The notes below the pieces were generated by a model. That model ran no database searches. It worked only from the letters and a program-made list of their open reading frames with translations, and was not told the origin of the DNA. A stretch of 57,828 nucleotides of DNA from Anaerolineae bacterium (GTDB lineage Bacteria; Chloroflexota; Anaerolineae; Aggregatilineales; Phototrophicaceae): the NCBI GenBank assembly GCA_023382675.1, contig JAHDWN010000032.1, forward strand, positions 12,358 through 70,185. The letters are read 5' to 3'. Made by a program: the position numbers and the translations under genes. This document shows, one piece after another, positions 2,024 to 53,201 of this stretch (within the stretch, counting starts at the first letter, position 1; each line of letters starts with the position of its first letter).

Positions 2024-2475
2024 ATGTGTGTAAGCCGACGCCTTTCATATCAGGCCAAGTCAAATAAATGATGAGTGACGGGTTATGAATTCTTGAGCGT
2101 TGCGCTAATTGTGACTTCTCCGACATGTCTCAACAAGATGAAAATGCATGGCGAATAAGGACAGAGATGCATCGTTTGTAGTAAGTTCGTTTTGCGCCGC
2201 CGTTGGCTAAAGCTGCGCGGGGGCAGCGATGCTGCCTACGGTCGACAGAGCCGACCCCCTGAGCACGGCCAGGACCAATCAAGCCCACTGAAGGGGCTAG
2301 AAAAGGCCAGGAGTGATTACAAAGCGCCTTTAGTGCGCTTGATGACCATTTAGCCGGGCGATTCAACGTCCGGCGGGCGCGAGCGCACTTCATGCCCATT
2401 TGAGCGTTCTTTTCCATCAGCCCTTTCCTGTCATAAAGCTGGCATCGTCCTGGGGATGCCATGGCATGACATGCG
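2024..2475. repeat. Intergenic region with family A long-form element
   Basis: About 450 bp without a gene. 2201-2298 is a long-form family A element with hairpin GGCAGC/GCTGCC (2222-2236), hairpin GGTCG/CGACC (2240-2256) and terminal hairpin AGCCC/GGGCT inside 2277-2298. An opposing copy follows on the minus strand: AGCGC/GCGCT hairpin at 2323-2343 and GCCGGGCG/CGTCCGGC at 2353-2374. This inverted-pair layout recurs at six other loci in the window. 2024-2200 shows no clear signal. Confidence 0.65.
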
Positions 2476-3429
2476 TTAGCCCGGCTCGCCCAGGCGCTCC
2501 AGCCAGGCGATGACATCGGCGTTGAACTGCTCCGGCGCTTCTTCCATCGCCAAGTGCCCGACGTTGTCGTAGATGATCAGCTCGTCGTTGGGCAGCGCTT
2601 CGGCAAGCTGTTCGCCGCTTGCCAGCCGCACCCAGGTGTCGTCGCGCCCCCAGATCAACAGCGCGGGCATGTCGAGTTCGCCCAGGCGATCTTTGGCGAA
2701 GTTGTTGCGCCCGGAGTCACGGATGAGCGCGGCAAACGCCTGGTCGTAGTTCGGCGTTTGCAGCACTTTGGTGTAGCCCGCGCGCACAGCCTCGGTCGCC
2801 AGCGCCGGATCATGATAGGCCGAGGCGAGGGTATCGCCGTAGCGTTCCGGCGTCAGCAAGACCCGCGCGCCGATCTGAATCCAGCGCGTGAAGGGCGCGA
2901 AGCCCGCCAGCGTGCCGACGAACGGCGGTGCGCCGCCGCCGAGCGCCGCATCGACGAACACCAGCCCATCGACGCGCTCCGGATACTTGAGCGCGACATG
3001 GGCGATGATGCCGCCGCCCGCGCTGTGACCGACGAGCACGGCGTGATCGATGCCGCGCGCATCCATGAAGGCGGCCAGGAAATCGGCCTGGCTCGGCGCG
3101 GACACGTCGAAATCGAGTGTCTTCTCGGTCAGGCCGAAGCCGGGGCGGTCTAGGGCGATGGTGTGGTAGCCGGCTTCCGCCAGGGCGTTCAGGTTGTCGC
3201 GCCAGCTAAAGGTCGAGCCGCCCAGCCCATGCACGAGCAGCACCGCCTGCCCGTCCTCCGGTCCGCGTTCGATGTAGTATGTGTCCAATCCTTCGACCTC
3301 GACGAACTGGCCGCCATCGCTCGCCAGCGTGCGCGGATCGACGCCGGTCTCCGGCAGGGGGATCAGAAACGGCAGGATGAAGAGGATGAAGAAGAGCAGC
3401 AGGAAGATGCGCAGAAGCCAGCGTCTCAT
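2476..3429 (-). CDS. Alpha/beta hydrolase, membrane-anchored
   Basis: A 317-residue protein starting at 3429 (AGGGA about 9 bases upstream). It opens with a strong hydrophobic segment (MRRWLLRIFLLLFFILFIL), so it is probably tethered to the membrane with its catalytic domain outside. The alpha/beta hydrolase fold is clear: oxyanion motif HGLGG, nucleophile elbow GHSAGG, acid in WGRDD and catalytic His in NVGHLAME near the C-terminus. Spacing fits an esterase, lipase or epoxide-hydrolase-like enzyme of about 280 residues. The substrate cannot be assigned. It is not co-transcribed with a recognisable pathway. Confidence 0.8.
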   Translation of the reverse strand: MRRWLLRIFLLLFFILFILPFLIPLPETGVDPRTLASDGGQFVEVEGLDTYYIERGPEDGQAVLLVHGLGGSTFSWRDNLNALAEAGYHTIALDRPGFGLTEKTLDFDVSAPSQADFLAAFMDARGIDHAVLVGHSAGGGIIAHVALKYPERVDGLVFVDAALGGGAPPFVGTLAGFAPFTRWIQIGARVLLTPERYGDTLASAYHDPALATEAVRAGYTKVLQTPNYDQAFAALIRDSGRNNFAKDRLGELDMPALLIWGRDDTWVRLASGEQLAEALPNDELIIYDNVGHLAMEEAPEQFNADVIAWLERLGEPG

Positions 3430-3797
3430 GGATGGGTGTCCCTCACTCGTGCTTCGGTGATGGCGTGATAGATATCGCCTATGAGTCTGCCGGATCGGAC
3501 ATCCGGACGCAAGCGGTTCGCGCGCAACCGAGGCATTCGGTTTCTGTGGAACGCCCGCCCATGAAATGGGGCGGGCTAGGGAAGCGTCCCCTGCGGGGAC
3601 TGTGCCAGCAATCATGATGCCTTTGAGCCTCCGCAGGGGGCGCACGTTCAGACGGGGAATTACATTCCCGGGCGGCGAATGACGCATTTGCCCCCAATTT
3701 CCGAATGCGCCCGCTTTCCGCGCGCTGCGGGATCTATCCCGCCCGACAGTCTCACTTCGATTCCGATGCCATTCTGTCTTCTCGGCGCCGCTGTTAT
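3430..3797. repeat. Intergenic region with degenerate family B hairpins
   Basis: GCCCGCC/GGCGGGC flanks a loop at 3553-3576. It is followed by GTCCCC/GGGGAC (3584-3600) and the phrase GCCAGCAATCATGATGC. Order and spacing resemble the family B hairpins around 34056-34185 and 48109-48290, with different stem bases. The rest, up to the photolyase stop codon, shows no gene. Confidence 0.5.
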
Positions 3798-6787: not shown

Positions 6788-6799
6788 GTGTTCGCGAAA

Positions 6800-6836
6800 T
6801 TCAATACAATGTGAACGACGCCCTTATTGTATTGAA
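6800..6836 (-). promoter_or_regulatory. Perfect 10-bp inverted repeat, candidate light-regulated operator
   Basis: TTCAATACAA at 6800-6809 and TTGTATTGAA at 6827-6836 are exact inverted repeats separated by 17 bp, 13 bp upstream of the carotenoid-desaturase start. The repeats are AT-rich in otherwise GC-rich DNA and include -10-like TACAAT. The position fits an operator overlapping the promoter of the carotenoid-photolyase operon. In other bacteria such operons are controlled by MerR-type, B12-dependent CarH/LitR photoreceptors; assigning one here is inference, and no such gene lies in the window. Confidence 0.55.
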
Positions 6837-6902
6837 CTCTGGGCAGCGGTGTGCGAAATCTAACCAGACACTAAATTGGATACGGCAAATTCTAACGTCT
6901 GT

Positions 6903-7297
6903 TTAAGGCTCCAATTCTTTGAGCGCGAATGCGACCGCTTCCTCCAGCGATAGCCTGCGGCCCGCAGCGCAGGCGGATTGAAATTCTGCGTCGCCAAGCT
7001 GCTGGCGCACACGGGACACGGTGCGTTCAACAAACGGTACATTGACGGGCTGCTGGCGAATGTTCATGGCCTCTTGCAGCGCTGCACTACGGCATCGTGG
7101 GTCGCTGCGTCCAACTGAAAGTATGGCTTCACCGCCTGCGCCCGCTGCGCAAACAAAGCGACCGACTCCGACCATTCAGACTGTCCACTGTCGATCAAGC
7201 TCAACGGCTGCACAGGATAGACCTGCTCGCCGGATATTCGCAGCGCTGTGCGAACTCCGGCGCGTGTGTAAAGCACGCGGGTCTGCGCCTTGCTCAC
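6903..7297 (-). pseudogene. Eroded remnant of an AfsR/LuxR-type signal-transduction ATPase
   Basis: Two overlapping fragments in different frames. The upstream piece (about 7064-7297) reads RISGEQVYPVQPLSL then ESVALFAQRAQAVKPYFQL, which matches the middle of the NB-ARC-like ATPase domain. There the intact family continues to CxxLDGLPLAIELAAAR. The downstream piece (about 6903-7090) reads QQLGDAEFQSACAAGRRLSLEEAVAFAL, the standard C-terminal end of the same large family (LGEaaFaaAwaeGRaLsLEqAv). The several hundred residues normally between them are missing and the frame shifts. No start codon context is convincing. This is decaying DNA, not a gene. Confidence 0.65.
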
Positions 7298-7579: not shown

Positions 7580-7628
7580 GTTTACCAAGTACATAGTACC
7601 TTTATCATACAGTTGATTTTGTAAATTT

Positions 7629-16355: not shown

Positions 16356-16402
16356 GACGGCGCTGCGCTGCGATCGGTTGGGGCGGTTGGGTGAGGTTGC
16401 GC

Positions 16403-16570
16403 GCCGACCGGTCAACCGGTCGGCTAGGGTTAATCAAGCATACTCAAGATGCTGTCATACTACGCATATTGACAGTGAATGTAAGAGCAGGTGGAGAACA
16501 ACGGTTAGCATTTTTCCGAAGCGCCTTCAGTGCGCTGGATGCCAGGTAGCCGACGGGTTGACCCGTCGGC
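16403..16570. repeat. Family A inverted pair (BIME-like), left flank of RAYT1
   Basis: The plus-oriented half has hairpin GCCGACCGGT/ACCGGTCGGC (16403-16424) and then AGCAT/ATGCT (within 16432-16453). The minus-oriented half has AGCGC/GCGCT (within 16521-16540) and then GCCGACGGGT/ACCCGTCGGC (16549-16570). GTAG at 16546-16549 forms the foot of the last hairpin. The spacer shares GCAGGTGGAGAACA with the right-flank copy at 17016-17182. The last hairpin ends 7 bp from the transposase stop codon. Confidence 0.8.
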
Positions 16571-16577
16571 GGACGAA

Positions 16578-16997
16578 TCATGCGCCGCCCGTGTCCATAT
16601 TCTCAAGCAGGGCGTACAGATGATTGTTCGCGTGGTGCTCGCGCTGCTTGACGATGTAGTTGATGACGAAGCCCGCCTGTTTCTCGCCAAAGGCGACAAC
16701 GCCGTAGCTCTTTTGCCACGCAAATGTAGTCTCCAGATCCGGGAATGCGCCGTTGACTTCGTGTGACGAGATGCCTTTGACACGTCGCGCCCATTCGGCA
16801 ACCGCTACGCGAGGTGAAATTTGCACCGCGACGTGAACGTGATCCGGCATCGCATAGATTGCGAGTATCGGGCTATGGAGTTCACGAGATTTCTGTTGAA
16901 TGATGTCCTGAATGAGCGCTTGGCGCTGCGCATCAATGACGGCGGCGCGATGCTTCGTCGCCCAGACAACGTGGTAATAGCATTTTGCAAAGGGCAT
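16578..16997 (-). mobile_element. IS200-like Y1 transposase (RAYT1)
   Basis: A 139-residue single-domain HUH transposase. The family opening CYYHVVWATKHR is present. The metal-binding HUH motif is MPDHVHVAVQI (His53, His55) and the nucleophile is Tyr114 in VINYIVKQREHH. Size and motif order fit TnpA of IS200/IS605 and REP-associated tyrosine transposases. No tnpB accompanies it. It lies between two copies of the same hairpin pair, whose GTAG feet point toward the gene from both sides. It could therefore mobilise or have spread the family A elements. The frame looks intact. Confidence 0.88.
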
Positions 16998-17015
16998 TGG
17001 ATTGTCCGCGTGCGC

Positions 17016-17182
17016 GCCGACCGGTCAACCGGTCGGCTACATCTAATCAAGCATACTCAAGATGCTTCAATTCTAGCCCTTTTGATGATGTTTGTCCGTG
17101 CAGGTGGAGAACATCTGTCGGCATTCTCCCCAGCGCCTTCAGTGCGCTTGATTTCCCCTAGCCGACGAGTTGACTCGTCGGC
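17016..17182. repeat. Family A inverted pair, right flank of RAYT1
   Basis: The plus half has GCCGACCGGT/ACCGGTCGGC (17016-17037) and AGCAT/ATGCT (within 17045-17066). The minus half has AGCGC/GCGCT (within 17132-17153) and GCCGACGAGT/ACTCGTCGGC (17161-17182). CTAC at 17037-17040 reads GTAG on the minus strand. Compared with the left copy, the last stem changed GGGT/ACCC to GAGT/ACTC with pairing kept. Confidence 0.8.
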
Positions 17183-17232
17183 GGGCTCGCGCACAGGCTG
17201 GCTTGAAAGGCCTTATGTTGGCGTGGTAACCA

Positions 17233-18483: not shown

Positions 18484-18906
18484 AGTGAGGGAGCTTTTTA
18501 CAGGTTTGGACGGGTCATAGAAGGGCTGGCGGCAGCCTTGATAGGGTCTGATCACCTCTGAGCGTGGCTATGGAAGTGCTCCGCAGGTGGAACTATTGCG
18601 CGCGTTGGGCGTGATTGCAGCCCGCTTGAGCGGGCGCGGCCCTAGCCAGGGTATTTATGCCCTGGCGGTGTATGAAGACGGGCGAGACAGGTCTCGCCCG
18701 TACCAAGGTCGTCATCATCTGTCGTTCAAAAACCCAGCGCCCTCACTCTTGAACCCAGAACTGAGTGCCGAGCACCTTCTTCCCGTACTGTGAACCCAGT
18801 ACCCAGCACAGTACCGAGTACGGAGTACCCACATCCCGCACCGTGAACCCAGTACTCCGAACTCAGAACCCAGTACTGAGCACTGAGTACCGAGCACCGA
18901 GCACCA
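18484..18906. repeat. Three-hairpin cluster and heptamer repeat, no gene
   Basis: GCCCGC/GCGGGC (18620-18635), GCCAGGG/CCCTGGC (18645-18666) and an 11-bp perfect stem ACGGGCGAGAC/GTCTCGCCCGT (18678-18701) follow each other. 18743-18905 is then a drifting 7-bp repeat of the form GAGYACY, on which short frames are open in several phases. Such frames are treated as artefacts. Confidence 0.65.
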
Positions 18907-18912
18907 ACCGTC

Positions 18913-20820
18913 CTATTCCTCCAGCGTGCTCGTGTCGCCTTCGGGCAGGCCCTGCGCACGGGCACGCAGCACGCGGCGCATGATCTTGCCGCTGCGGGTC
19001 TTGGGCAGCACGTCCACGAACTCGATCTTGGCGGGCACGGCGATCGGGCCGATCTCGTGGCGGATGTGATCCTTGAGCGCGTCTTTGAGTTCCTCGCTCT
19101 TTTCGGCCCCGGCGCGCAGGATGCAGTAGGCGTAGATGATGTTGCCCTTGATCTCGTCCGGGATGCCGATGACGGCGGACTCGGCGACCGCCGGGTGGCT
19201 GACCAGGCCGCTCTCGACCTCCGCTGTGCCCAGACGATAGCCGCTGACCTTGATCACGTCGTCGTTGCGCCCGATGATCCAGATGTAGCCGTCGTCGTCC
19301 TTGCGCGCCGTGTCGCCGGTCAGATACCAGCCCTGCTTGTCATAAGCGCTCCAGTACTGATTGACGTAGCGCTCAGGATCGCCGTAGACCGTGCGCAGCA
19401 TTCCCGGCCACGGCTGCTGAACGACGAGCACGCCGTCTACGCCCGCAGGCACAGGATTCCCGTGCTCATCGACCACATCGACCTTGATGCCGGGGAAGGG
19501 GCGGGTCGCTGTGCCGGGCTTGAGCGGCATGCTCGGCACCGGCGTGATCATGAAGCCGCCGGTTTCGGTCTGCCACCAGGTGTCCATGATCGGGCAGCGC
19601 TCTTTGCCGATGATGCGGTGATACCAGCGCCACGCCTCCGGATTGATCGGCTCGCCGACGGTGCCCAGGATGCGCAGGCTGCTCAGGTCGCGGCGGTTCG
19701 GCCAGTTGTCGCCGAAGCGCATCAGGCCGCGGATAGCTGTCGGCGCGGTGTAGAGGATGCTGACGCCGTAATCCTCCACGATCCGCCACCAGCGGTCGGG
19801 ATAGGGATGGTTCGGCGCGCCCTCGTAGAGGATGCTGGTCGCGCCCAGGATCAGCGGCGCGTAGACGATGTAGCTGTGCCCGGTGATCCAGCCCGGATCG
19901 GCGGCGCACCAGTAGCGATCCTCGTCGGTGATGTCGAACACGCACGAGAGCGTCGTCGAGGTGTAGACCGCGTAGCCGCCGTGGGTATGCAGCACGCCCT
20001 TGGGCTTGCCGGTCGTGCCGCTGGTGTAGAGGATGAACAGCGGGTCTTCCGCGTCCATGACTTCGGTCTCGCAGTAAGGGCTGGCAATCGGCAGGCCCAT
20101 CAGGTCGTGATACCAGTAGTCGCGTCCTTGTTCCATGGTGACTTCATGGCCGGTGCGCTTGACCACGATCACCGTCTCGACGATCGGTGAGCGGCGCACG
20201 GCCTCATCGACCACATCCTTGAGGCGGACGATATTGCCGCGCAGCCACGCGCCATCAGCCGTGACGAGCACCTTGCTCTGCGCATCCTCGATGCGGTCGG
20301 CCAGCGCCTGCTCACTGAAGCCGCCGTAGACGACGCTGTGGACCGCGCCAATCTTGGCGCAGGCCAGCATCGCGATCATGATCTCCGGGATGCGCCCCAT
20401 GTAGATGGTCACGCGGTCGCCTTTGCGCACGCCCATGCTGCGCAGAACGTTGGCGAACTTGTTCGTCTCTTTCCACAGCCGCCAGTACGAGAGCGTGCAT
20501 TTGTCGCCCGGCTCACCCTCCCAGATCAAGGCGAGCTTGTTCTTGCGCCAGGTCTTGACGTGCCGGTCGAGCGCGTTGGCGGCGATGTTGATCTTGCCGC
20601 CGACGAACCACTTGTAGAACGGCGCTCTGCTCTCGTCCAGCACCTTCTGCCAGGGCGTATACCAATCGAGATTGCTCGCCATCTTGCCCCAAAATGCTTC
20701 CAGATCGCGCTCGGCCTCGGCGTACATCGCCTCGTAGTCCGGCACACGCGCGCTCTTGATGATCTCCTCACTGGGGTAATACCACTCGTTCGTCGCAGGA
20801 TTAATTGTTTGGTCGGTCAT
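18913..20820 (-). CDS. acs: Acetyl-CoA synthetase (AMP-forming)
   Basis: A 635-residue ANL-superfamily ligase making acetyl-CoA from acetate, ATP and CoA through acetyl-adenylate. It is full length with the expected signatures: [20 protein letters not shown], the P-loop [48 protein letters not shown] and the C-terminal [11 protein letters not shown]. The Lys of that last motif is the regulatory acetylation site in known Acs enzymes. The start at 20820 is preferred because GAGGGAG lies 11 bases upstream; an ATG at 20841 gives seven extra residues without a ribosome-binding site. Monocistronic. Confidence 0.95.
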
Positions 20821-21081
20821 GATAAAAACGCTCTCCCTCATTCTCGGCGCGGACAGAGTTTAAGTGCGGGCGCGAATTATACCGCGCCAGACGCTTAAGC
20901 AAAGTCAAATCGAGTAAAGGTTGGCTTGAGTTTCGGGCGAATTTGTGCGGATGTTGTGCCGATTAATTCTTCGATTCTTTTAGCGGGACTAAACTTAAAA
21001 ATGGAGAAGATCGGTCAAGTCAAATCAACGCTAAGCGAATTATCGATTCTGGCCTGTAATCATCACGTTGAGGACTTATCC

Positions 21082-24000
21082 ATGAATGTCAATCGGAAAC
21101 GAGCGAGAGAGCAATTAAGCATTGGTCAGGGTCTTGTGGAATATGCCTTGCTGCTCGCCTTCATCGGCCTGGCTGTCATTGGCATCACGCAAGTTCTGGA
21201 AGAGGCCACGGCCAACAAATTTGAAGATGTTAATTGTTTCTTGCAGCCTGGTGGCTTGTGCCCGCCGATTTGGGAGCCGGGCAGTTCCGCTGATCCGGGC
21301 GGAACCGGCATCCGGGGTGAAGCGCCCGGCACGATTGGTGGTACCGGTGGCACAGGTGGCACCGGCGGTACGGGTGGCACTGGCGGTACGGGTGGCACTG
21401 GCGGCACGGGTGGCACTGGTGGTACTGGCGGTACGGGCGGCACTGGCGGCACAGGTGGCACCGGCGGCACCGGCGGTACGGGTGGTACCGGCGGTACGGG
21501 TGGCACAGGCGCGACCTACGTGACAGGTGCGCTGTTGCGCCAGCAGTTCGACGGGATTGCCGGTAGCACGGTTGGTGATCTGACCGGGCACAGCGATTTC
21601 CCGGCAACGCCGACTGTCTGCGAAGTAGCGACCAGCTTTGAAGCGCCATCCAATATCGCTGACGACTACGGTGAGTGGATGCGTGGGTATCTGATTCCGC
21701 CGGCCAGCGGCGACTACACTTTCTGGATCGCCAGTGATGGCAACAGCGAGCTGTGGTTGAGCACGGATGCGAGCGAGAGCAACAAACAGCGCATCGCCAG
21801 GGTGCCCGATTGGACGAACCCTCGTGAATGGACGAAATACCCGGAACAGCAATCAGTGGCGATCACGCTGACGGCCGGGGTGGCCTACTATATTGAGGCG
21901 TTGATGAAAGAGGCCAGTGGCGACGACAATCTCGCGGTCGCGTGGCAAGGGCCAGGCGTGAGCAGTCGCGACGTCATTGCTGGTGACTATCTGTCAGCCG
22001 GCGGTCTGTACTGCACGATAGGTGGCCCCGAAGATCCGGGTGGCACGGGTGGTACGGGCGGCACGGGCGATCCGGGCGGCACGGGCGATCCGGGTGGCAC
22101 GGGTGGCACGGGCGGTACTGGCGGTACAGGCGGCACTGGCGGTACGGGCGGCACAGGTGGTTACACGACCGGCTCCCTGCTGCGCGAACAGTACGATGGA
22201 ATTGGCGGCAGCACGATTGACGATCTGACCGGGCACAGCAGTTTCCCGTTGTCACCGACCGTCTGCGCTACGGTCTCCAGCTTTGAAGCGCCGACCGACA
22301 TTGCCGACAACTACGGCGTGCGGCTGCGCGGCTATCTGGTGCCCACGGTCAGCGGCAGCTACACCTTCTGGATTGCCGGCGACGACCAGAGCGAACTGTG
22401 GCTGAGCACGGATACCGATTCGGCCAACAAACAGCGCATCGCCAGCGTGCCCGATTGGACGAACCCGCGTGAGTGGACGAAATACAGCGAACAGCAGTCG
22501 GTGTCGATCACGCTGACAGCCGGGGTCGGCTATTACATCGAAGCGCTGATGAAAGAGTCCGGCGGCGGCGACAATCTCGCTGTTGCCTGGCAAGGCCCAG
22601 GCATGAGCAGCCGTGAAGTCATCCCCGGCAGCAATCTGGCCCACGATGGTATGTCCTGTTCGGGCGGTGGTGGTACGGGTGGCACTGGGACGGTTTACAC
22701 GACCGGCGCGCTGCTGCGCGAAGAATACGACGGCATCCGCGGCACCAGCGTCAGCGATCTGACCGGGCATGCCAGTTTCCCGGACTCGCCGACCGTATGC
22801 GCCACGGTGTCCAGCTTTGAAGCGCCGACCGACATCGCCGAAAACTACGGGCAGCGCGTTCGCGGGTATCTGGTGCCGTCGCTCAGCGGCAGCTACACCT
22901 TCTGGATTGCAGGCGACGACAACAGCGAACTGTGGCTGAGCGCGGACGCAAATTCAGCCAACAAGCAATTGATCGCGCGCGTCCCCGGTTGGACTAATCC
23001 GCGTCAGTGGACGAAGTACGGCGAGCAGCAATCGGTGTCGATCATGCTGACTGCCGGGCAGGGCTACTACATCGAAGCGTTGATGAAAGAGTCCGGCGGC
23101 GGCGACAACCTCGCTGTTGCGTGGCAAGGCCCAGGCATGAGCAGCCGTGAAGTCATCCCCGGCGTCAACCTGTCACACGATGATATGACCTGTTCGGCGG
23201 GTGGCACGGGCGGCGGCACGCCGATCATCCCGTACAACACCGGCGTGATCCTGCGTGAACAGTACAACGGAATCACCGGCAGCAACGTCAGTGATCTGAC
23301 GAGCAGCAGCCGCTTCCCAGCGTCGCCGAACGTGTGCGCTTCGGAGACGAGTTTCGAAGCGCCCTCCGGCATCGCCGACAATTACGGGCAGCGGATGCGT
23401 GGCTTGCTGATCCCCATCACCAGTGGTACGTATACCTTCTGGATCGCTGCGGACAATACGGCTGAGCTGTGGCTGAGCAGCGATACCAACTCGGCCAACA
23501 AGCAGTTGATCGCACGTGTCCCCGGCTGGACATCCTCCCGCCAGTGGACGAAATACACAGAACAGCAGTCGACTACGATCACGCTGACGGCCGGCCGGGC
23601 ATACTATATCGAGGCGCTGATGAAAGAAGGTACCGGCGGCGATAACCTCGCGGTTGCGTGGCAAGGACCAGGCATGAGCGGCCCAACGGTCATTCCCGGT
23701 GCCAGTCTGTCCAGCGATGGTATGACGTGTACCGCCGTGACCACCACGATCTATACCACGGGGCAGATCGCCCGCCAGGTCTGGTGGTCGATCAGTGGCT
23801 CCGCCGTGTCCAATCTGACTGGCAACAGCCGCTACCCGGATTCGCCCGACGAGTGCTCGCTGTCGACAAGCTTCGAAGCGCCGAGCAACATCGGTAATAG
23901 CTACGGCGAACGGATGCGCGGCTTCCTGATCCCATCGGTCAGCGGCAGCTACACCTTCTGGATCGCCAGCAACAACGATGGTGAACTCTGGTTGAGCATC

Positions 24001-24255
24001 GATGAAAACCCGGCCAACCGGCAGCGCATCGCCTACGTCTCTGGTTATACGAACGTCCGGGAGTGGAACAAGTATAGCTCCCAGCGATCAGCATCGATCA
24101 CGCTGAATGCGGGCCAGGCCTATTACATCGAGGCGCTCTTGAAGGAGGGTACCAATACCGACAACCTGGCGGTGGCGTGGCAGGGGCCTGGCATGAGCGG
24201 CCCAACGGTCATCCCTGGCAGCAATCTATCGGCGACAGGCATCGCCTGTCCGTAA
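21082..24255 (+). CDS. Type IVb pilin-like protein with five PA14 domains
   Basis: A 1057-residue exported protein. The start at 21082 has GAGGA seven bases upstream. Residues 1-40 look like a Flp/TadE-type prepilin: a basic leader, then G15-QGLVEYALLLAFIGLAV, with Glu20 at +5 and Tyr at +6 of the predicted processed helix. A Gly-Gly-Thr linker of 19 nine-base units (21337-21507) follows. Five PA14 domains come next, at about residues 146-315, 360-528, 538-706, 717-884 and 890-1057, each ending in DNLAVAWQGPG. PA14 modules bind carbohydrates. Linkers shorten along the protein. The role as a pilus- or surface-displayed adhesin is inferred; no tad genes are nearby. Confidence 0.82.
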   Translation: MNVNRKRAREQLSIGQGLVEYALLLAFIGLAVIGITQVLEEATANKFEDVNCFLQPGGLCPPIWEPGSSADPGGTGIRGEAPGTIGGTGGTGGTGGTGGTGGTGGTGGTGGTGGTGGTGGTGGTGGTGGTGGTGGTGGTGGTGATYVTGALLRQQFDGIAGSTVGDLTGHSDFPATPTVCEVATSFEAPSNIADDYGEWMRGYLIPPASGDYTFWIASDGNSELWLSTDASESNKQRIARVPDWTNPREWTKYPEQQSVAITLTAGVAYYIEALMKEASGDDNLAVAWQGPGVSSRDVIAGDYLSAGGLYCTIGGPEDPGGTGGTGGTGDPGGTGDPGGTGGTGGTGGTGGTGGTGGTGGYTTGSLLREQYDGIGGSTIDDLTGHSSFPLSPTVCATVSSFEAPTDIADNYGVRLRGYLVPTVSGSYTFWIAGDDQSELWLSTDTDSANKQRIASVPDWTNPREWTKYSEQQSVSITLTAGVGYYIEALMKESGGGDNLAVAWQGPGMSSREVIPGSNLAHDGMSCSGGGGTGGTGTVYTTGALLREEYDGIRGTSVSDLTGHASFPDSPTVCATVSSFEAPTDIAENYGQRVRGYLVPSLSGSYTFWIAGDDNSELWLSADANSANKQLIARVPGWTNPRQWTKYGEQQSVSIMLTAGQGYYIEALMKESGGGDNLAVAWQGPGMSSREVIPGVNLSHDDMTCSAGGTGGGTPIIPYNTGVILREQYNGITGSNVSDLTSSSRFPASPNVCASETSFEAPSGIADNYGQRMRGLLIPITSGTYTFWIAADNTAELWLSSDTNSANKQLIARVPGWTSSRQWTKYTEQQSTTITLTAGRAYYIEALMKEGTGGDNLAVAWQGPGMSGPTVIPGASLSSDGMTCTAVTTTIYTTGQIARQVWWSISGSAVSNLTGNSRYPDSPDECSLSTSFEAPSNIGNSYGERMRGFLIPSVSGSYTFWIASNNDGELWLSIDENPANRQRIAYVSGYTNVREWNKYSSQRSASITLNAGQAYYIEALLKEGTNTDNLAVAWQGPGMSGPTVIPGSNLSATGIACP
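21337..21507 (+). repeat. 19-unit 9-bp coding minisatellite (Gly-Gly-Thr)
   Basis: Nineteen consecutive units of the type GGYGGYACN encode Gly-Gly-Thr between the pilin-like helix and the first PA14 domain. Third positions vary among units while the encoded residues do not. A second, shorter tract interrupted by Asp-Pro is at about 22036-22160. Confidence 0.9.
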
Positions 24256-26232: not shown

Positions 26233-26302
26233 CCTCATCCCCACCCCTGAACCTGACGGTTCTTCCCCTCCCCATCGCGATGGGGAAGGGAACGAGGGGC
26301 GG
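26233..26302. repeat. Palindromic repeat type D, copy 2
   Basis: CCCCACCCCTGAACC, then GGTTC, then a palindrome centred on CCCCATCG/CGATGGGG, as at 1116-1185. One arm has an extra A, so the palindrome is slightly imperfect. Confidence 0.7.
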
Positions 26303-26342
26303 GGAGTCGTGCCAAAACGCGACTCCGAGCTCGCCGTAAGCC

Positions 26343-30166: not shown

Positions 30167-30238
30167 TCATCCCCACCCCTGAACCTGCGGTTCGTCCCCT
30201 CCCCATCGCGATGGGGAGAGGAATAAGGGGAGGGGACT
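30167..30238. repeat. Palindromic repeat type D, copy 3
   Basis: CCCCACCCCTGAACC, GGTTC, then CCCCTCCCCATCG with its complement, as at 1116-1185. Located between the TPM gene and the GT-C-like gene. 29976-30166 shows no other signal. Confidence 0.7.
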
Positions 30239-30292
30239 TATTCAAACACAGTGCTTCGATCATGTCGCGCCAATACTCGTGAGCGAATCACC

Positions 30293-31864: not shown

Positions 31865-31910
31865 TCGCAGCCTGCGCTAGCGCAATATCAGGGCGCTGTA
31901 ATTGAACGTT

Positions 31911-31985
31911 TCCTCTCCCCTTAATCCCCTCCTCATCGCAATGGGGAGGGGAAGAACCGTAAGGTTCAGGGGTGGGGATAATTGC
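31911..31985. repeat. Palindromic repeat type D, copy 4, reversed
   Basis: The inverse orientation of the other three copies: CCCCTCCTCATCG, its partner, then GAACCGTAAGGTTCAGGGG and TGGGG. One arm has two substitutions. Confidence 0.65.
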
Positions 31986-32015
31986 GCAATTCAAGTAATT
32001 TACCCTGAACGTGCG

Positions 32016-35557: not shown

Positions 35558-35561
35558 GGGG

Positions 35562-35616
35562 TGCTCAGTGCTCAGTACTCGGTACTCAGTTGTGAGTTCT
35601 GGGTTCCGAGTTCTAA
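35562..35616. repeat. Heptamer microrepeat RGTNCTS
   Basis: Seven to eight consecutive 7-bp units: GGTGCTC, AGTGCTC, AGTACTC, GGTACTC, AGTTGTG, AGTTCTG, GGTTCCG, AGTTCTA. Confidence 0.6.
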
Positions 35617-35675
35617 TGGAGTATCCGGTTAGGTTTGAACGGATCAGACTGATAGGTAGGGTTGGCACGGCGTTC

Positions 35676-35860
35676 GCCGACGGGTCAACCTGCGCGGGGC
35701 AGCTTTGCTGCCTTCGTCGGCGTATTACGCCGATCCCTGGTCACGGCTAGCAGGCATCAAGCACACTCAAGGTGCTATTCAGAATATACCCAAGACAACA
35801 GCCTAACGAAGCATCTTGAGTATGCTTGATTAGACCTAGCCGACCGATTGATCGGTCGGC
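35676..35860. repeat. Family A long-form inverted pair
   Basis: The plus half has GCCGACGGGTCAACC interrupted by an insert with GGCAGC/GCTGCC and TCGGCG/CGCCGA (35717-35733), then terminal AGCAC/GTGCT (within 35756-35776). The minus half has AGCAT/ATGCT (within 35810-35831) and GCCGACCGAT/ATCGGTCGGC (35839-35860). The two halves use different, internally matched stems. A further hairpin GGGCGA/TCGCCC is at 36006-36025. Confidence 0.75.
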
Positions 35861-36064
35861 GACGAAAGCAATCTAGCCCAACTACTGTCCAAGACATCCA
35901 TCCTGTCATATCTATCTGTTTGATCCATGAGTTCAGGATTCAAGACGTGATGGCGACATGCGCCTGCGCATTTCCTGGGCAAGCAATCCAAAGGGCACGC
36001 TGTACGGGCGAGATATATGTCGCCCACAACAGAATCCCAATATGCTCTTGTACTGCTCGCCGCT

Positions 36065-37817: not shown

Positions 37818-38051
37818 GGGGTGCTCAGTGCTCCGTTGGGTTCACAGTGCCCGGTGCGAAATATGCGTACTAGGTGCTAGGTACTCAGTACTCGGTTCTG
37901 AGTTCATATTTGGGTGCTCAGTGCTCGGTCTCTGGGGTCAGTGGGCGAGAAGATAGCGCCTTCAGTGCGCTTGATTTTGCCTAGCCGACCGACTTCAGCC
38001 GTCGGCGGACTCAGTTCTGGATTCACGGTGCGAAACATGGGTACTTGGCTC
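37818..38051. repeat. Heptamer repeats and a single family A unit
   Basis: 37818-37935 is made of RGTRCTN heptamers, partly degraded. 37955-37976 holds AGCGC/GCGCT and 37984-38006 GCCGAC/GTCGGC, a minus-oriented family A unit without its partner. 38092-38135 is a separate heptamer tract (TTTTGGC, TTTTGGG, TATTGGC, AGTTGGC on the minus strand). Confidence 0.6.
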
Positions 38052-43592: not shown

Positions 43593-43725
43593 GATCTTCA
43601 CTCGTGAATCAGGTTGTTAAGCGCTGTGAGCGTAACGACGTTTCGAGTCCTGCGCAAGAATGTGCGATGCGAGAGGGGTGAAGGATACGAACCGCGAAGA
43701 CACGGAGGAGATCTGTAGAAAGGCC

Positions 43726-43900
43726 GCCGACGGGTCAACCCGTCGGCTAGGAGAAATCAAGCGCGCTAAAGGCGCTAGAGAATTTGCCGATCATGTCAGT
43801 CGTATCTATGTTTTCTATAAGTCAATCCTTGGCGTGCCGTTCTTGAGCCGCCCTCGGCGGCTTGATGCTACATAGCCGACTGGCTTCAGCCGTCGTCGGC
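43726..43900. repeat. Family A inverted pair
   Basis: The plus half has GCCGACGGGT/ACCCGTCGGC (43726-43747) and AGCGC/GCGCT (within 43755-43776). The minus half has AGCCGCC/GGCGGCT (43846-43861) and an extended hairpin GCCGAC/GTCGGC with inner GGCT/AGCC (43875-43900). The terminal stem here is two base pairs longer than in other copies. Confidence 0.75.
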
Positions 43901-43924
43901 GACTGCTCATCACTTTTTCTAGCG

Positions 43925-43983
43925 TCGTGAACCGTGTACTGTGAACCCAAAACTGAGCACCGAGTACCGAGCACCGAGTACCA
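43925..43983. repeat. Heptamer microrepeat
   Basis: GAGCACC, GAGTACC, GAGCACC and GAGTACC follow one another near 43953-43981, preceded by more diverged units. It ends just before the feo promoter. Confidence 0.55.
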
Positions 43984-43995
43984 AATTTTCCCCAC

Positions 43996-44024
43996 TTGCC
44001 AATATTACGAGAACGCGGTAAAAT
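43996..44024 (+). promoter_or_regulatory. feo operon promoter
   Basis: TTGCCA (43996-44001) and TAAAAT (44019-44024) are spaced by exactly 17 bp. The predicted start near 44031 falls inside the DtxR-like box. Confidence 0.65.
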
Positions 44025-47375: not shown

Positions 47376-47411
47376 TCCCGCGGCAGCGACATCCATCGCG
47401 AAATAACGTGG

Positions 47412-47437: not shown

Positions 47438-47516
47438 GCTGGAAGATGGCTGGTGCGGCTGAAAGGTGTCAGTTATTATTTGCGAAATCGGCGACTTTCA
47501 ATTGGCCCTACCTAAT

Positions 47517-48089
47517 ATGCCGGAAAACAGCCCAAAGAAAAACACCCCAGACGTCGATGTGCGCATGATCCATCACGATCTGGCGGGCGCGCCGCGTCAT
47601 GCGCTGCCGGAAGGCTATCACATGCGCTTCTATCGTGACGGCGACGTGGCGCCCTGGGTGCGCATCCAGCGCGCGGCGGATGCGTTATCGCAGGCAACGG
47701 CGGAGACCTTCGCGCAGTATATGCCGGGCGACGTCGCCCATCTCGCCCGGCGTGTCATGTTCCTGGTCGATCCGTCTGGCGCGGACATCGGCACGATCAC
47801 GGCCTGGAACGGCGACGCCTTCGACGGGCGCGACATCGGCCTGGTGCATTGGGTGGCGATTGCTGCCTCGGCGCAGGGGCGCGGGCTGGCGAAGCCGATG
47901 CTCAGTGCCGTACTCGGCGTGCTGCGCGATCTTGGCTACAACGACGCCTGGCTGGATACGAATACACGGCGCATCCCGGCGCTCAATCTGTATCTGGCGT
48001 TCGGGTTTGCGCCGCATCCCCGCAGCGAAGCCGAGCGAGCGGCCTGGCGCGCCATCGCGCCGCTGCTCAAGTACCCGGTGGGGGTGTGA
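47517..48089 (+). CDS. GNAT-type acetyltransferase
   Basis: About 190 residues. The N-terminal part has LPEGYHMRFYRDGDVAPWVRIQ. The acetyl-CoA loop region is ASAQGRGLAKPMLSAVLGVL, followed by YNDAWLDTNTRRIPALNLYLAFGF, the standard GNAT C-terminal motif. Substrate unknown. The start is uncertain: ATG 47517 or the internal ATG 47565 are possible, and neither has a good ribosome-binding site. The gene lies directly behind the feo terminator and ahead of the second hairpin locus. Confidence 0.75.
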   Translation: MPENSPKKNTPDVDVRMIHHDLAGAPRHALPEGYHMRFYRDGDVAPWVRIQRAADALSQATAETFAQYMPGDVAHLARRVMFLVDPSGADIGTITAWNGDAFDGRDIGLVHWVAIAASAQGRGLAKPMLSAVLGVLRDLGYNDAWLDTNTRRIPALNLYLAFGFAPHPRSEAERAAWRAIAPLLKYPVGV

Positions 48090-48108
48090 TCGGGGTCGCC
48101 AGTACGAC

Positions 48109-48280
48109 GCCCGACCGTCGAACGGTCGGGCTGGTGGAAATTGGGAAGCCATCTGGAAGATGGCTGGTTCCAACCAAGCATGATGCGGTCAAAACGGAAA
48201 AAATAAGCCGCATACCATGAGGCTTACCGGAAGTGCCAGCAAGATGCTTCGAAGCGAAGCTCCCCGCAGGGTGCATCTTG
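48109..48280. repeat. Family B hairpins, left of RAYT2
   Basis: GCCCGACCGT/ACGGTCGGGC (48109-48131), AGCCATC/GATGGCT (48147-48165), then GCAAGATGC at 48239-48247 pairing with GCATCTTGC near 48273-48281 and enclosing CTTCG/CGAAG. Feet read CTGG/CCAG instead of the CTAG/GTAG of family A. Confidence 0.75.
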
Positions 48281-48294
48281 CGGTCCGTCATGGG

Positions 48295-48711
48295 CTAATG
48301 CTCGTCATCCACACGTTCCAAATGTGCATTGGTCGTGCCTTGGGCATGGTGCTCCTGCTGGCGCGTGATGTAGTCGATCACCTGATTCAGTTGTCGCGAT
48401 CCAACCGTGAGCACGCCGTAGCTGCCTTGCCAGCGGAAGCGGGCACTGTCATCGGGAAAGGCTGTGTTGACGGCGCGTGACGATGCACCTTTGATCTCGC
48501 CGACCCATTTTGCAATCGCGATGGCGGGTGGGATCGCCGCCGCAACATGCACGTGATCCGGCATCCCATTCACCGCCAACGCCTCGCCGCCGAGATCGCC
48601 TGCCTTTGCACGGATCGCCTCGTAAATGATCTGCGCGTAGGGCGGTGTGATGAGCTCGGCTCGATACTTCGTCGCCCAGATGACGTGGTAATAGCAGATC
48701 CAGTAGGGCAT
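48295..48711 (-). mobile_element. IS200-like Y1 transposase (RAYT2)
   Basis: A 138-residue HUH transposase, paralogous to the one at 16578-16997, with the same motif positions: MPDHVHVAAAI (His53, His55) and Tyr114 in VIDYITRQQEHH. The two differ at most other positions, so duplication is old. The frame is intact and no tnpB is present. It is flanked on both sides by family B hairpins that face each other, in contrast to family A around RAYT1. This suggests separate transposase-repeat pairs. Confidence 0.88.
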
Positions 48712-48767
48712 TGCATCTTCTCACAGTCGTCGCGGGTGTGCATTCTTTGTCAAGTATGAAACCAGCC

Positions 48768-48822
48768 AGCCATCTTCCAGATGGCTTCCAAAATTGCCAG
48801 CAAGATGCTTCGAGCATCTTGC
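48768..48822. repeat. Family B hairpins, right of RAYT2
   Basis: AGCCATC/GATGGCT at 48768-48786 is the inverse of 48147-48165. A 10-bp stem GCAAGATGCT/AGCATCTTGC with TCG loop follows at 48800-48822. It has the same layout as 34163-34185 with different paired bases. Confidence 0.75.
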
Positions 48823-48935
48823 GCGTACTGGCGAGTGGGCCGGTTTTGCTCTCCCATCGGCGTTGATAGTATCATAGGCGAGTTCAACTTTCGGATTGAT
48901 GTGTCTGTCTCGCTATCCTCGCCGGTGGTCAGCCC

Positions 48936-49325
48936 ATGCGCGTGTTCATTAGCTACAGCCGCAAAGACGTGAATGCTGCGAACACCATAGCAGATGTGCT
49001 GCGCGCACGAGGTGTGGATGTCTTCATCGATTTTCAACGCTTGACCGCGCTCGACAATTTCCCTGAACGTCTCGCCCTTGAGATCGACGCGTGTGATGTG
49101 TTGGTGCTACTTCTCAGTGAACATGCAGCCGCATCGAAATGGGTCGTGCGTGAAGTGCAGTACGCCGATCATAAGTCCAAACCAATTGTCATCGCTCGCC
49201 TCGACTCGGTATCGCTGCCCCACGCCCTGTTCTTCCTCGCCTATCAGGATTACATTGATTGCACAGATTTCCTTGCCGATGATGTGTTTCAAGCGAAAAC
49301 TGTTTCGGTCGTTGAACTTGCCTAA
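48936..49325 (+). CDS. TIR-domain protein
   Basis: A 129-residue TIR domain: MRVFISYSRKDVNAA, VDVFIDFQRL, CDVLVLLLSEHAAASKWVVREV (Glu73 at the NADase catalytic position) and KPIVIARLD. It stops at TAA 49323-49325. The next frame (+1 relative) continues without pause into an FGE-like domain, so the gene may be the front half of a TIR-FGE fusion broken by one frameshift, or a coupled pair. The TIR domain would cleave NAD in defence or act as an adaptor. Confidence 0.75.
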   Translation: MRVFISYSRKDVNAANTIADVLRARGVDVFIDFQRLTALDNFPERLALEIDACDVLVLLLSEHAAASKWVVREVQYADHKSKPIVIARLDSVSLPHALFFLAYQDYIDCTDFLADDVFQAKTVSVVELA

Positions 49326-49356
49326 TGATGCTCCAAATGCCCCGCCGCCAAACACG

Positions 49357-50124
49357 ATGCTACCCTCTGTCACAATCCCTGCCGACGATGTGCTCTCCAT
49401 CTTGCCACCTCCGTTCGCATGGTGTCCGATCCCCGCCGGGCAGGTCACGATCGAAGGCAAAACCTATGACGTGCCCGCTTTCGAGATGGCGAAGTACCCC
49501 GTCACAAACGCTCAATTCCGGGTCTTCATTGATGCGGACGACGGCTATCGTTATCCTGTGTGGTGGGAGTTTTCCGAGGAAGCGAAGGCCTGGCACAACA
49601 GAAACACACGGCCCCTGCCGACAGCCTTTGATGGTGAAGATCATCCGCGCGCAAACGTCTCGTGGTATGAGGCGATTGCCTTCTGTTGCTGGTTGGCTGC
49701 ACGCCTACGTATCGAGCCTGAGCAACCCGCGATTTCATTGCCGACAGAGCTTCAATGGCAGTTGGCAGCCGTTGGCGATACTGGTTGGGATTATCCCTGG
49801 GGGCCAGTTTTTGATCTATTGCGCTGCAACAGCAGTGTGGGAGGCAAAAGCAATGGGACTTCACCAGTCTCTGCGTACGAAACTAAAGGAGACAGCCCAT
49901 TTGGTGTCGTCGATATGACCGGCAATATCTGGGAATGGTGCCGAAATCTCCGCGACGATATTGCTTCAGACAATTTGCAAGGCCAAAAGCCACGTATGCT
50001 TCGTGGCGGATCATGGAGGAACAACAATTCACAGATTTTGCGGGCTGCCTATCGCGGCGACGGCGCTCCTTATTCCATGGGCTATGATTGGGGATTTCGA
50101 GTTGCCCGCACTATATGGAGCTGA
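49357..50124 (+). CDS. FGE/SUMF1-like domain protein
   Basis: A 255-residue formylglycine-generating-enzyme fold: FAWCPIPAGQVTIEGK, FEMAKYPVTNAQFRVFIDADDG, ANVSWYEAIAFCCWLA, LPTELQWQLAA, FGVVDMTGNIWEWC and RMLRGGSWRNN, ending GFRVAR. The Cys pair that follows GGSW in active FGE is absent (GGSWRNNNSQILRAAYR), so catalysis of the classical reaction is unlikely. The open frame extends upstream through the TIR gene in another phase. The ATG at 49357 lacks a ribosome-binding site, so expression may depend on the upstream gene. Confidence 0.75.
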   Translation: MLPSVTIPADDVLSILPPPFAWCPIPAGQVTIEGKTYDVPAFEMAKYPVTNAQFRVFIDADDGYRYPVWWEFSEEAKAWHNRNTRPLPTAFDGEDHPRANVSWYEAIAFCCWLAARLRIEPEQPAISLPTELQWQLAAVGDTGWDYPWGPVFDLLRCNSSVGGKSNGTSPVSAYETKGDSPFGVVDMTGNIWEWCRNLRDDIASDNLQGQKPRMLRGGSWRNNNSQILRAAYRGDGAPYSMGYDWGFRVARTIWS

Positions 50125-50239
50125 AGCGTAATCTCCTTCACGCACTCCGCACCCATTCCCCAAAATCAGACTATAATGCTCCTATCACACCATCATCGCA
50201 GCCCATTGCCCGGTCTCAGCCCATGCGAAAGGCGTTGTG

Positions 50240-51415: not shown

Positions 51416-51723
51416 AGATCGCGTTCGAGCGCAGCGGCGGTTTTGCGGGGCTGCGTATCACCGTGACCATCGATACGGACACGCTGCCGCCGCATGAGGC
51501 CGCGCAACTGGAGAGTCTGGTCGAGGATGCAAAGTTCTTCGATCTTCCGGCGCGGCTGCGCTCATCCACAGGCGGCGCGGATCAGTTTCAGTATGTCGTG
51601 ACCGTCGCGGATGGCGAGCGCCGCCATACCGTGCGGACGACCGACAGCGCCGCGCCGGAGACGCTGCAACCGCTGCTGCGCCGGCTGGTCATTCTGGCGC
51701 GGACTTCGCGGCGGGATGGGTGA
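51412..51723 (+). CDS. Emfourin-like protease inhibitor
   Basis: A 103-residue protein coupled to the M4 protease gene. Its opening IAFERSGGFAGLRITVTIDTDTLPPHEAAQL and the central YVVTVADGERRHTVRTTD are characteristic of emfourin, the inhibitor encoded next to protealysin. It would hold the cytoplasmic protease in check. Confidence 0.85.
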   Translation: MKIAFERSGGFAGLRITVTIDTDTLPPHEAAQLESLVEDAKFFDLPARLRSSTGGADQFQYVVTVADGERRHTVRTTDSAAPETLQPLLRRLVILARTSRRDG

Positions 51724-51994
51724 GGGCGGCAGGCAGGCACGCCCATCCGCGCGATTAGTGATCCTCCTCATCTTGAGATTCGGCAAAGAATCTGCTATCT
51801 AGTGCAGCTTCGTGTCATCGTGGCTGGCTCTGCTCCGGATTCCAGCGTGCCTGCCCTGTGCGCTGCATCAGGCAAGCGCCCTGGTCTTACGGGCGGGAAT
51901 GCAGCCGGGTGCAGGTGACACGCGCTGGTTGTTGGAGCAACGCTGTAACGTGAGACCGGGGACACATGGAAGTGGTGAGTGAGGGATGCAGAAG
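51724..51994. other. Intergenic spacer
   Basis: AGATTC/GAATCT (51775-51792) is the only clear hairpin and has no T-run. No gene or repeat family is recognised. Confidence 0.4.
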
Positions 51995-52861
51995 ATGGTG
52001 TTGCTAGAGAACAAGGTTGCAGTCATTACCGGAGGCACACGCGGGCTGGGTCTGGGAATTGCGCAGACCTATGCAGCGGCGGGCGCTGCCGTCGTCATCG
52101 CCGGTCGTTCGAAGTCAACGCTGGACACTGCGATAGCGGAGCTAGAGGCAAACGGCGCGCGGGCGGCTGGAACGACGTGTGACGTGAGCGATCTAGAGCA
52201 AGTCGAGGCGTTAGGCGCGTTCGCGGTTGAGACCTTCGGCAAGATCGACATCTGGGTCAACAACGCGGGTTTATCTGCGCCCTATGGCCCAACCACAGCC
52301 ATCCCAGCGAGCGCCTTCATGCGGGTGGTCAATACCAATATCGTCGGCGTCTATAACGGATCGATGGTGGCGCTGCGCCATATGCTGCCCAACCGCAGCG
52401 GCAAACTAATCAATCTCGTGGGCCGCGGCTCAAATGACAGGGACGGCGTGAAATTTCAAAATGCCTACGCGTCGAGCAAGGCTTGGGGGCGTAGTTTCAC
52501 CCTGTCGCTGGCGCGCGAGAACGAAGACAGCGGCGTCGGGATCTTCGCCTTCAACCCTGGCCTGGTTGACACCGACATGCTGCGCCAGGTCGAAGTCGTG
52601 CCGGGCTTCGAGGAGCGCGTCAAGCCGCTGGAAACGGTCATGCGGCTCTGGGCGAACGAACCCGATCTACCTGCACAGAAAGCGCTCTGGCTGGCCTCCA
52701 GCGCAACCGACGGCAAAAGCGGTCTGCTGGTGAATGTCCTGACCGGGCAGCGTGTGATGGGCGGCCTGCTCCGCGAGGCGCTGCGGCGCATCACCGGGAA
52801 ACCTGCGCCCGATATGTCGCTCGACATTCGCACACTGGCTCCGGAACGTCAGCAAAGCTAG
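51995..52861 (+). CDS. Short-chain dehydrogenase/reductase
   Basis: A 288-residue Rossmann-fold oxidoreductase. The cofactor motif is TGGTRGLG, with the basic AGRSKSTL suggesting NADP preference, NNAG is conserved, and the catalytic Tyr-x-x-x-Lys is in AYASSKAWG. The catalytic Ser region reads INLVGRGSN, which differs from the usual V-x-SS. The start at 51995 has GAGGG nine bases upstream; ATG 51986 is too close. Substrate not known. Confidence 0.85.
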   Translation: MVLLENKVAVITGGTRGLGLGIAQTYAAAGAAVVIAGRSKSTLDTAIAELEANGARAAGTTCDVSDLEQVEALGAFAVETFGKIDIWVNNAGLSAPYGPTTAIPASAFMRVVNTNIVGVYNGSMVALRHMLPNRSGKLINLVGRGSNDRDGVKFQNAYASSKAWGRSFTLSLARENEDSGVGIFAFNPGLVDTDMLRQVEVVPGFEERVKPLETVMRLWANEPDLPAQKALWLASSATDGKSGLLVNVLTGQRVMGGLLREALRRITGKPAPDMSLDIRTLAPERQQS

Positions 52862-52986
52862 TCGCGCAGATGCCCGCCTGGTGGCTGACTGCCAAGGAGT
52901 CCAGGGCAACACATTCTTGCAGCACGGCTTACCGGGCGCAACCATAGCCAGGGACTTGAGGCGCGGTGCTGAGTGCAAAACCACCA

Positions 52987-53201
52987 CCGACGGGTCAACC
53001 TGCGCGGGGGCAGCTTTGCTGCCTTCAGTCGGCGAAGCTCGCCGACCCCTGAGCACAGCTAGCCGCAATCAAGCGCACTGAAGGCGCTTTCGGGACTCAG
53101 ATCACCAGGAGCTGATTCCAAGCGCGAACCAAGAATCAAAATTGGAAGTGAAGCATCTTGAGTATGCTTGATTATCTTTAGCCAGTCGTTGACTGGTTGG
53201 C
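52987..53201. repeat. Family A long-form inverted pair
   Basis: The plus half has GGCAGC/GCTGCC, GTCGGCGA/TCGCCGAC (53028-53046) and terminal AGCGC/GCGCT (within 53067-53088). The minus half has AGCAT/ATGCT (within 53152-53173) and CCAGTC/GACTGG (53182-53196). 52862-53316 carries no gene. Confidence 0.75.

Follow-up and report, generated by a model that had tools for sequence, protein, structure and literature searches.

We analysed a 57,828-nucleotide (nt) stretch of the genome of an Anaerolineae bacterium (GenBank assembly GCA_023382675.1, contig JAHDWN010000032.1, positions 12,358 to 70,185; hereafter the window, G000:C32:12358-70185). The window carries a family of short repeats with two hairpins each (family A) and a gene for a small Y1 transposase, Y1-1 (16578-16997). 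The repeats resemble repetitive extragenic palindromes (REPs) and REP doublets forming hairpins (REPINs); we consider it probable, at roughly three chances in four, that they are non-autonomous elements cut and spread in trans by this IS200-type enzyme. The original prediction, made from the letters of the window, had described eleven such elements with covarying stems, a constant loop and pairing selected in DNA or RNA, and contained neither the transposase gene nor the paired layout, the bulge and the long-head variant reported here.

Two-hairpin units and the pairing of their stems

The small hairpin was searched for with a degenerate pattern, ATCAAGCNNACTSAAGNNGCT, that leaves four variable stem positions (two stem pairs) unconstrained. 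With at most three mismatches, it matched the window 12 times compared with 0.23 ± 0.47 times in 100 shuffles, and direct reading added a 13th unit, whose loop differs, at 43850-43901. Direct reading thus confirmed the seven loci and the arms listed for them by the original prediction and raised its count of eleven to 13 two-hairpin units, 12 of them in six inverted pairs and one alone (37955). In the whole source genome (G000; 6.4 Mb, 110 contigs), the pattern matched 85 times with at most one mismatch and its reversed control not once, giving at least 85 copies. At the same stringency, the same-genus genomes G002, G013 and G006 had 92, 5 and 1 copies, respectively, and the other 11 searched had none; any match at all was found in 8 of 61 genomes searched. 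A covariance model of the unit (R1) detected units in 44 of 98 family genomes; since at most 59 candidates were scored per genome, its counts for G000 and G002 are lower bounds. Reading of loci gave 38 pairings, with one locus (L039) counted double and another (L006) mis-set, and 30 matches were partnerless by the script cut-off. The repeats are therefore high-copy palindromes lying mostly as inverted pairs, as REPs, REPINs and bacterial interspersed mosaic elements (BIMEs) do. By coordinates, the window loci lie between the larger candidate genes examined, some of which are open reading frames without a family match.

The common unit is about 54 nt long and consists of two hairpins rather than the single 21-65-nt hairpin with a 5′ tetranucleotide that defines REPs, REPINs and BIMEs. 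Its head hairpin (GCC...GGC) has 10 bp and a 2-nt loop, as in GCCGACGGGT-CA-ACCCGTCGGC, and is adjoined by TA in 83 of 96 fixed-length heads, mostly as CTA. About 10 nt then separate the TA from the small hairpin, ending in AATC (110/164) or CATC (46/164) plus one base. The small hairpin has the form AGCnn-A-CT-nA-AG-nnGCT with one unpaired A, and in an inverted pair two units face each other across a short middle. These compositions come from 164 units of G000 and G002, collected with a pattern that itself favours A before CT, C or G at the S position and the CT/AG pairs. The base before CT was A in 142 units, G in 19, T in 2 and C in 1; the S position was G in 94, A in 37 and C in 33; and the inner CT/AG pairs were present in 159 of 164. 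The supposedly constant ACTSAAG loop thus proved variable at its first base and at the S position. We read this loop, from the composition of the copies, as an unpaired A, two CT/AG pairs and a two-base loop, whereas energy folds leave all seven bases open and the folding tools do not predict the inner CT/AG pairs.

A bulge also occurs in many heads. It scored on the 3′ arm in 38 of 42 classified heads and on the 5′ arm in the other 4, with 23 of 65 unclassified; inspected by eye, all four 5′-arm heads and two of the 38 3′-arm ones were perfect heads misread by one base. The head bulge was likewise on the 3′ arm in six family loci picked by eye. Provided that the bulge sets polarity, the small hairpin, with its bulge on the 5′ arm, and the head would have opposite polarity.

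Both arms of the stems changed together, as originally proposed, and compensation at chance level was not seen in the stem counts. The two stem pairs left free by the pattern comprised 334 cells in 167 units (95 from G000, 69 from G002 and 3 from G013; at most two mismatches), of which 326 were Watson-Crick, 8 unpaired and none G-T; shuffles had 226.9 ± 5.4 Watson-Crick cells, and none of 5000 was as high. Fixed 22-nt heads were present in 96 of 183 units (27 distinct), the 87 excluded units comprising 22 with long heads and 65 others; 924 of their 960 cells were Watson-Crick and 6 were G-T (shuffles, 734.6 ± 11.9 Watson-Crick), and the commonest heads were perfect 10-bp palindromes. When 58 distinct units were aligned, with 17 assigned pairs, 97.3% of 986 cells were paired, 123 had changed on both sides (38.0 in shuffles), 7 had changed on one side to a wobble pair and 27 were unpaired, and the covariation score was 0.340 compared with 0.137 in shuffles. 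Paired cells, two-sided cells and score each exceeded all 500 shuffles as well as slid controls, over which the assigned structure has an advantage because it was drawn from those same units. The number of pairs with any two-sided change (8, against 6.4 in shuffles; 37/500) and that of further pair types (17, against 18.5; 487/500) were not outstanding in the same 58 units. Column pair 7-18 was unpaired in 11 of the 58, mostly through an A-C mismatch common to one subfamily, and the 12 pairs predicted by RNAalifold all fell within the 17.

A comparison between genomes is cleaner than these tests, as the copies within a genome are related. Between the four units around Y1-1 in G000 and their orthologues in G002, 2 of 68 pairs differed, both on two sides with pairing kept, and none of the 68 showed a one-sided change, while 20 of 80 unpaired columns had changed. 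Preservation of pairing both within genomes and between orthologues suggests that pairing itself is likely selected. Covariation alone does not prove this part of the original prediction, since templated correction of a palindrome also changes both arms together. Replication template switching inside passive hairpins, copying changes from arm to arm with no selection for pairing, would fit the large excess of two-sided changes over wobble intermediates (123 compared with 7 cells, and none among the 334 free cells), the complete double change at both differing orthologous pairs and the perfect palindromes of the commonest heads. However, correction should erase bulges, yet the unpaired A is kept in 142 of 164 units (a set collected with a pattern that favours it) and an unpaired base is also retained on the 3′ arm of bulged heads; conservation extends beyond the arms to lead and foot, and the units surround and track Y1 genes. 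Because unpaired bulge bases have persisted, correction is not the whole story, and we regard purely passive palindromes as improbable, although templated correction may add to the covariation and explain part of the two-sided changes, and template switching can act alongside mobilisation in trans.

The choice between DNA and RNA, left open by the original prediction, could be narrowed. RNA helices tolerate G-U pairs, and wobble pairs were nearly absent here: 0 of 334 free cells, 6 of 960 head cells and 7 of 986 alignment cells. No Rfam family reached its gathering score anywhere in the window. Since, in addition, the units lie mostly in inverted pairs and surround and track a transposase of single-stranded DNA, the sequences favour DNA as the site of pairing. 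If the hairpins instead acted in RNA, as terminators, stabilisers of mRNA 3′ ends or structured non-coding RNA, with pairing selected there, covarying stems and the position of the seven loci between larger candidate genes would be accounted for; the scarcity of G-U and the lack of an Rfam match argue against this, and the symmetry of the inverted pairs, the association with Y1 genes and the very uneven copy number within the genus would be unexpected for a terminator. We consider a role in RNA very unlikely.

Y1 transposase genes and their hairpins

The window holds two Y1_Tnp genes. Of the four matches in G000, three are small genes and the fourth is a Y1-like domain in a 1138-aa frame. Each small gene is present in one copy, and they are 47-51% identical to Y1-1 or to each other's type. 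The three small proteins passed the IS200 model NF033573 with 90.2, 90.7 and 90.8 bits (cut-off 55) and failed the RAYT (REP-associated tyrosine transposase) model NF047646 with 29.9, 26.9 and 25.5 bits (cut-off 80). A scan of genome contigs gave 9 relatives, one of them close, and a protein search gave 42. In 15 family proteins, the HUH histidines His-53 and His-55 and Tyr-114 were invariant, as was the Tyr-114/Gln-118 arrangement, whose spacing is like that of the Y....Q signature of class 3; among 39 wider homologues, both histidines were invariant and Tyr-114 nearly so. A profile of the 15 members matched IS200-type PDB chains at 3.4e-22 to 3.5e-18, and TnpA_REP was absent among its 11 PDB matches within E 10. 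An AlphaFold2 model of Y1-1 (mean pLDDT 89.7) had its closest structural matches in IS608, ISDra2 and further IS200-type transposases, and REP-bound TnpA_REP (4er8) ranked lower. These results indicate that the small Y1 proteins are, by sequence and modelled fold, IS200-type and not RAYTs.

Y1-1 is flanked by inverted pairs on both sides, and its G002 orthologue (83% identical) lies between orthologous pairs. It is thus a Y1 gene bordered by the repeat and not itself multiplied, as in a REPtron. Between the two genomes, its nonsynonymous and synonymous divergences (dN and dS) were 0.093 and 1.54 (NG86), or 0.112 and 0.985 by a second method, values that show purifying selection; those of Y1-3 were 0.179 and 1.65 (NG86). 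Occupation of one place in two genomes together with purifying selection is as expected for a REPtron. A TIR-domain protein (PF13676; 15240-16355) directly adjoins the Y1-1 locus.

The other genes have hairpins of their own. The version flanking Y1-3 (contig C33) is related but not the same, and the hairpins at Y1-2 are quite different; the small one of the latter, GCCATCTNNNAGATGGC, was counted 11 times in G000 and 4 times in G002 and was absent from six other genomes. Y1 genes elsewhere in the genus adjoin further versions, and some, such as those at L092 and L105, do not have clear paired hairpins on both sides. Around 34 family Y1 loci, stems of at least 8 occurred at 3.55 per kb within 300 nt (72 stems) compared with 0.61 per kb at 800-1400 nt (23), a ratio that exaggerates the difference from intergenic DNA elsewhere, as the distant control is probably mostly coding; the same threshold misses bulged heads. 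The region of Y1-2, approximately 47439-50170 (about 2.7 kb), corresponds to 0.23 kb at the syntenic place in G002 (C54:79455-79689), within which a family A unit lies at 79500-79552.

The occurrence of the units also followed that of the gene. With a close Y1 homologue defined by E up to 1e-20 and units scored by R1, units were found in 23 of 24 family genomes with such a homologue and in 21 of 74 without one (Fisher p 2.4e-9). Among 12 Y1-negative genomes with at least three units, the family search found a small distant Y1 gene in five (G065, G006, G007, G019 and G004), only long-frame Y1-like domains in six (G071, G034, G086, G121, G074 and G072) and none in G031. Loss of the Y1 gene after spread of the repeat would explain genomes that carry units and are Y1-negative, some of whose assemblies are incomplete. 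Long frames with a Y1 domain recur in several family genomes. In G000 (C45; L067, 2-3082), the domain forms the C-terminal end of the 1138-aa frame and has no apparent HUH motif; the long-frame domain is possibly domesticated and non-catalytic.

We propose the following mechanism. Wherever single-stranded DNA is exposed, the units are predicted to form their hairpins; a transposase dimer would recognise these bulged structures there, cut next to them and rejoin, by which a pair would be either copied or moved. If the small hairpin and the head are opposed in polarity, each strand of an inverted pair would carry a single left-end-like hairpin and a single right-end-like one, and either strand could serve as substrate. 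Binding, cutting, spread and this strand symmetry are what we infer for the Y1 protein.

Element ends, insertion sites and neighbouring features

Some heads occur in a long variant, in which a module of about 57 nt replaces the 3′ arm. We considered whether the module is a separate mobile repeat and rejected this, as its core, present in 16 exact copies in G000, lies in every case at the head of a known element by coordinate comparison. We do not propose a single branched hairpin for the long head: two copies folded differently, with z scores of -2.06 and -1.09 relative to shuffles.

Subfamily alignments (11 A1, 7 A2 and 6 A3 copies) extend past the heads toward imperfect terminal repeats, CTNATGGA...TCCATNAG, which in A1 and A2 are separated by about 300 bp; A3 copies consist of one unit only, and some full-length copies do not have one of the two ends. 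The loss of likeness among the aligned copies near these repeats would also suit miniature inverted-repeat transposable elements (MITEs), the roughly 300-bp elements being moved by a DDE transposase that reads terminal CTNATGGA repeats, with the hairpins as cargo. A target duplication was not evident by eye at the ends read, however, the CTNATGGA ends were not seen beside the pairs flanking Y1-1, and the presence of the elements follows the Y1 gene, all of which makes such MITEs quite unlikely.

Several observations nevertheless weigh against mobilisation by the Y1 protein. The terminal inverted repeats of the full-length elements are, to our knowledge, not typical of Y1 elements, and none was seen beside the inverted pairs at the Y1-1 gene itself. 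Syntenic comparison with G002 at five loci gave no precise empty site, exact ends or target duplication. The elements at 2130, 35613, 37955 and 43724 were not present at the corresponding places in G002, and that at 52984 was common to both genomes, its G002 orthologue being without the long-head module; the bases adjoining the missing 2130-2420 element match inexactly, and at 35613 the whole intergenic stretch of G002 differs. Three of the 22 Y1 loci listed have no stem of at least 8 near the gene. In G008, a Y1 homologue is present but no unit was found. Finally, many units occur in genomes without a close homologue (G071, 56; G031 and G086, 37 each; G034, 29; G121, 23), of which G071, G086, G034 and G121 have only a Y1-like domain in a 641-887-aa frame and G031 has no Y1 match.

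Table 1. Positions of family A elements, Y1 genes and associated hairpins in the window
Feature	Position	Strand	Details
Full-length paired element, subfamily A2	2130..2420		Left-side long head; small hairpin 2278-2298; right unit ~2323-2374; right end TCCATCAG at 2413-2420, left end from similarity only
Inverted unit pair, 3′ side of Y1-1	16398..16572		Heads 16403-16424 and 16549-16570; small hairpins 16433-16453 and 16520-16540
Y1-1 transposase gene	16578..16997	-	139 aa, IS200-type, HUH and tyrosine present
Inverted unit pair, 5′ side of Y1-1	17011..17184		Two two-hairpin units
Full-length paired element, subfamily A1	35613..35931		Ends CTAATGGA...TCCATGAG, imperfect terminal inverted repeats; left-side long head
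Single two-hairpin unit	37955..38006	-	
Inverted pair	43724..43901		Right unit 43850-43901 with small-hairpin arms AGCCGCC/GGCGGCT, loop CTC
Distinct hairpins 3′ of Y1-2	48109..48284		Head GCCCGACCGT/ACGGTCGGGC; small hairpin GCCATCTGGAAGATGGC at 48148-48164; GCAAGATGC...GCATCTTGC
Y1-2 transposase gene	48295..48711	-	138 aa, own hairpin version
Hairpins 5′ of Y1-2	48768..48822		GCCATCTTCCAGATGGC at 48769-48785; GCAAGATGCTTCGAGCATCTTGC
Inverted pair	52984..53203		Left-side long head; G002 orthologue without inserted module

Other repeats were observed in the window. Degenerate runs of short words of the GTACTGAG/CACCGAG type occur at 18840-18921, 35560-35616, 37820-37940 and 43924-43998; several directly adjoin family A elements, and similar runs lie near various other elements of G000. 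A second dispersed palindromic repeat, CCCCTCCCCATCGCGATGGGGAGGGG, is present in both orientations (1109-1223, 26237-26318, 30188-30249 and 31874-31987). A 1109-aa reading frame (20926-24255) contains tandem repeats of 9 nt as well as a repeat of about 300 nt in five copies, spaced by about 520-645 nt.

Comparison with known systems

Domestication of a bacterial transposase has a known example in REP repeats and the transposases that belong to them. The REP, BIME and REPIN repeats of Escherichia coli, Pseudomonas and Stenotrophomonas, with the RAYT REPtrons that accompany them, resemble the present system in their short, high-copy palindromes, mostly in inverted pairs, in a Y1 gene that is present once per type and bordered by repeats, in a hairpin version specific to each Y1 type and in the bulged stems of many copies. 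Unlike them, the system described here has an IS200-like protein that scores below the RAYT model cut-off, two hairpins per unit, an Anaerolineae host and a foot that is mostly CTA or NTA, not GTAG. A GT[AG]G foot was not the rule: CGTA and TGTA, which give GTAG, occurred three times each among the 12 tetranucleotides listed, and a GTAG foot was visible by eye in some relatives. In the accessible part of one source, published experiments on RAYTs concern E. coli, Stenotrophomonas and Marinomonas, and TnpA_REP is reported to cleave at CT dinucleotides (PMC8266576). The ends of the present elements start with CT, which fits such cleavage but is no test of it.

TnpA_Y1 class 3, so far as the available text of its description goes (PMC6006769), shares the IS200-like Y....Q signature, REPtron-like surroundings and high-copy hairpins. 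It is described there as having a CnGA foot and as occurring principally in Planctomycetes, Acidobacteria and Proteobacteria (PMC6006769), whereas the head foot here, compared with that description only, is mostly CTA. CnGA was not among the 12 commonest head-foot tetranucleotides, a comparison in which the hairpin and side meant by the published foot are uncertain. The class 3 profile is 155 aa long, compared by length only with the 136-139 aa of the proteins here (PMC6006769). The TIRYT/TIRtrons, as presented in the portion of their report available (PMC3733652), likewise are tyrosine transposase genes with inverted-repeat borders, some double-palindromic and some repeated in the genome. Many of them carry a GGGGWSAS motif, and GTAG repeats are reported in Chloroflexi (PMC3733652, same portion); 20 of 26 were assigned to subclass 2.1 in the text available of PMC6006769.

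Among the literature matches listed, subscription journals being mostly outside coverage, no two-hairpin unit with an IS200-type partner was described. It is possible, if somewhat doubtful, that an IS200-type transposase became a REP-spreading partner independently of the RAYTs, with a bipolar two-hairpin unit that would make either strand processable at any fork direction. Should Anaerolineae harbour a second lineage, of IS200 type and with paired hairpins of its own, this would suggest that the arrangement can emerge repeatedly, and the several Y1-hairpin pairs of one genome could then be compared to learn how an enzyme discriminates its own hairpin. The near absence of wobble pairs offers a simple sequence test for distinguishing DNA from RNA hairpins.

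With IS200/IS605 insertion sequences such as IS608 and ISDra2, the present proteins share enzyme family and fold. The hairpins are also alike in that the enzymes of those elements read an unpaired base (IS608) or a mismatched base (ISDra2) in a hairpin, according to the accessible part of PMC8266576. Unlike those elements, no multiplying insertion sequence was seen here, each small gene type having one copy in G000, and Y1-1 has a whole inverted pair on either side instead of one left and one right end. Judged by sequence, the two-hairpin unit and its IS200-type partner appear to be a variant of the REP/REPIN-transposase kind, arranged as a REPtron.

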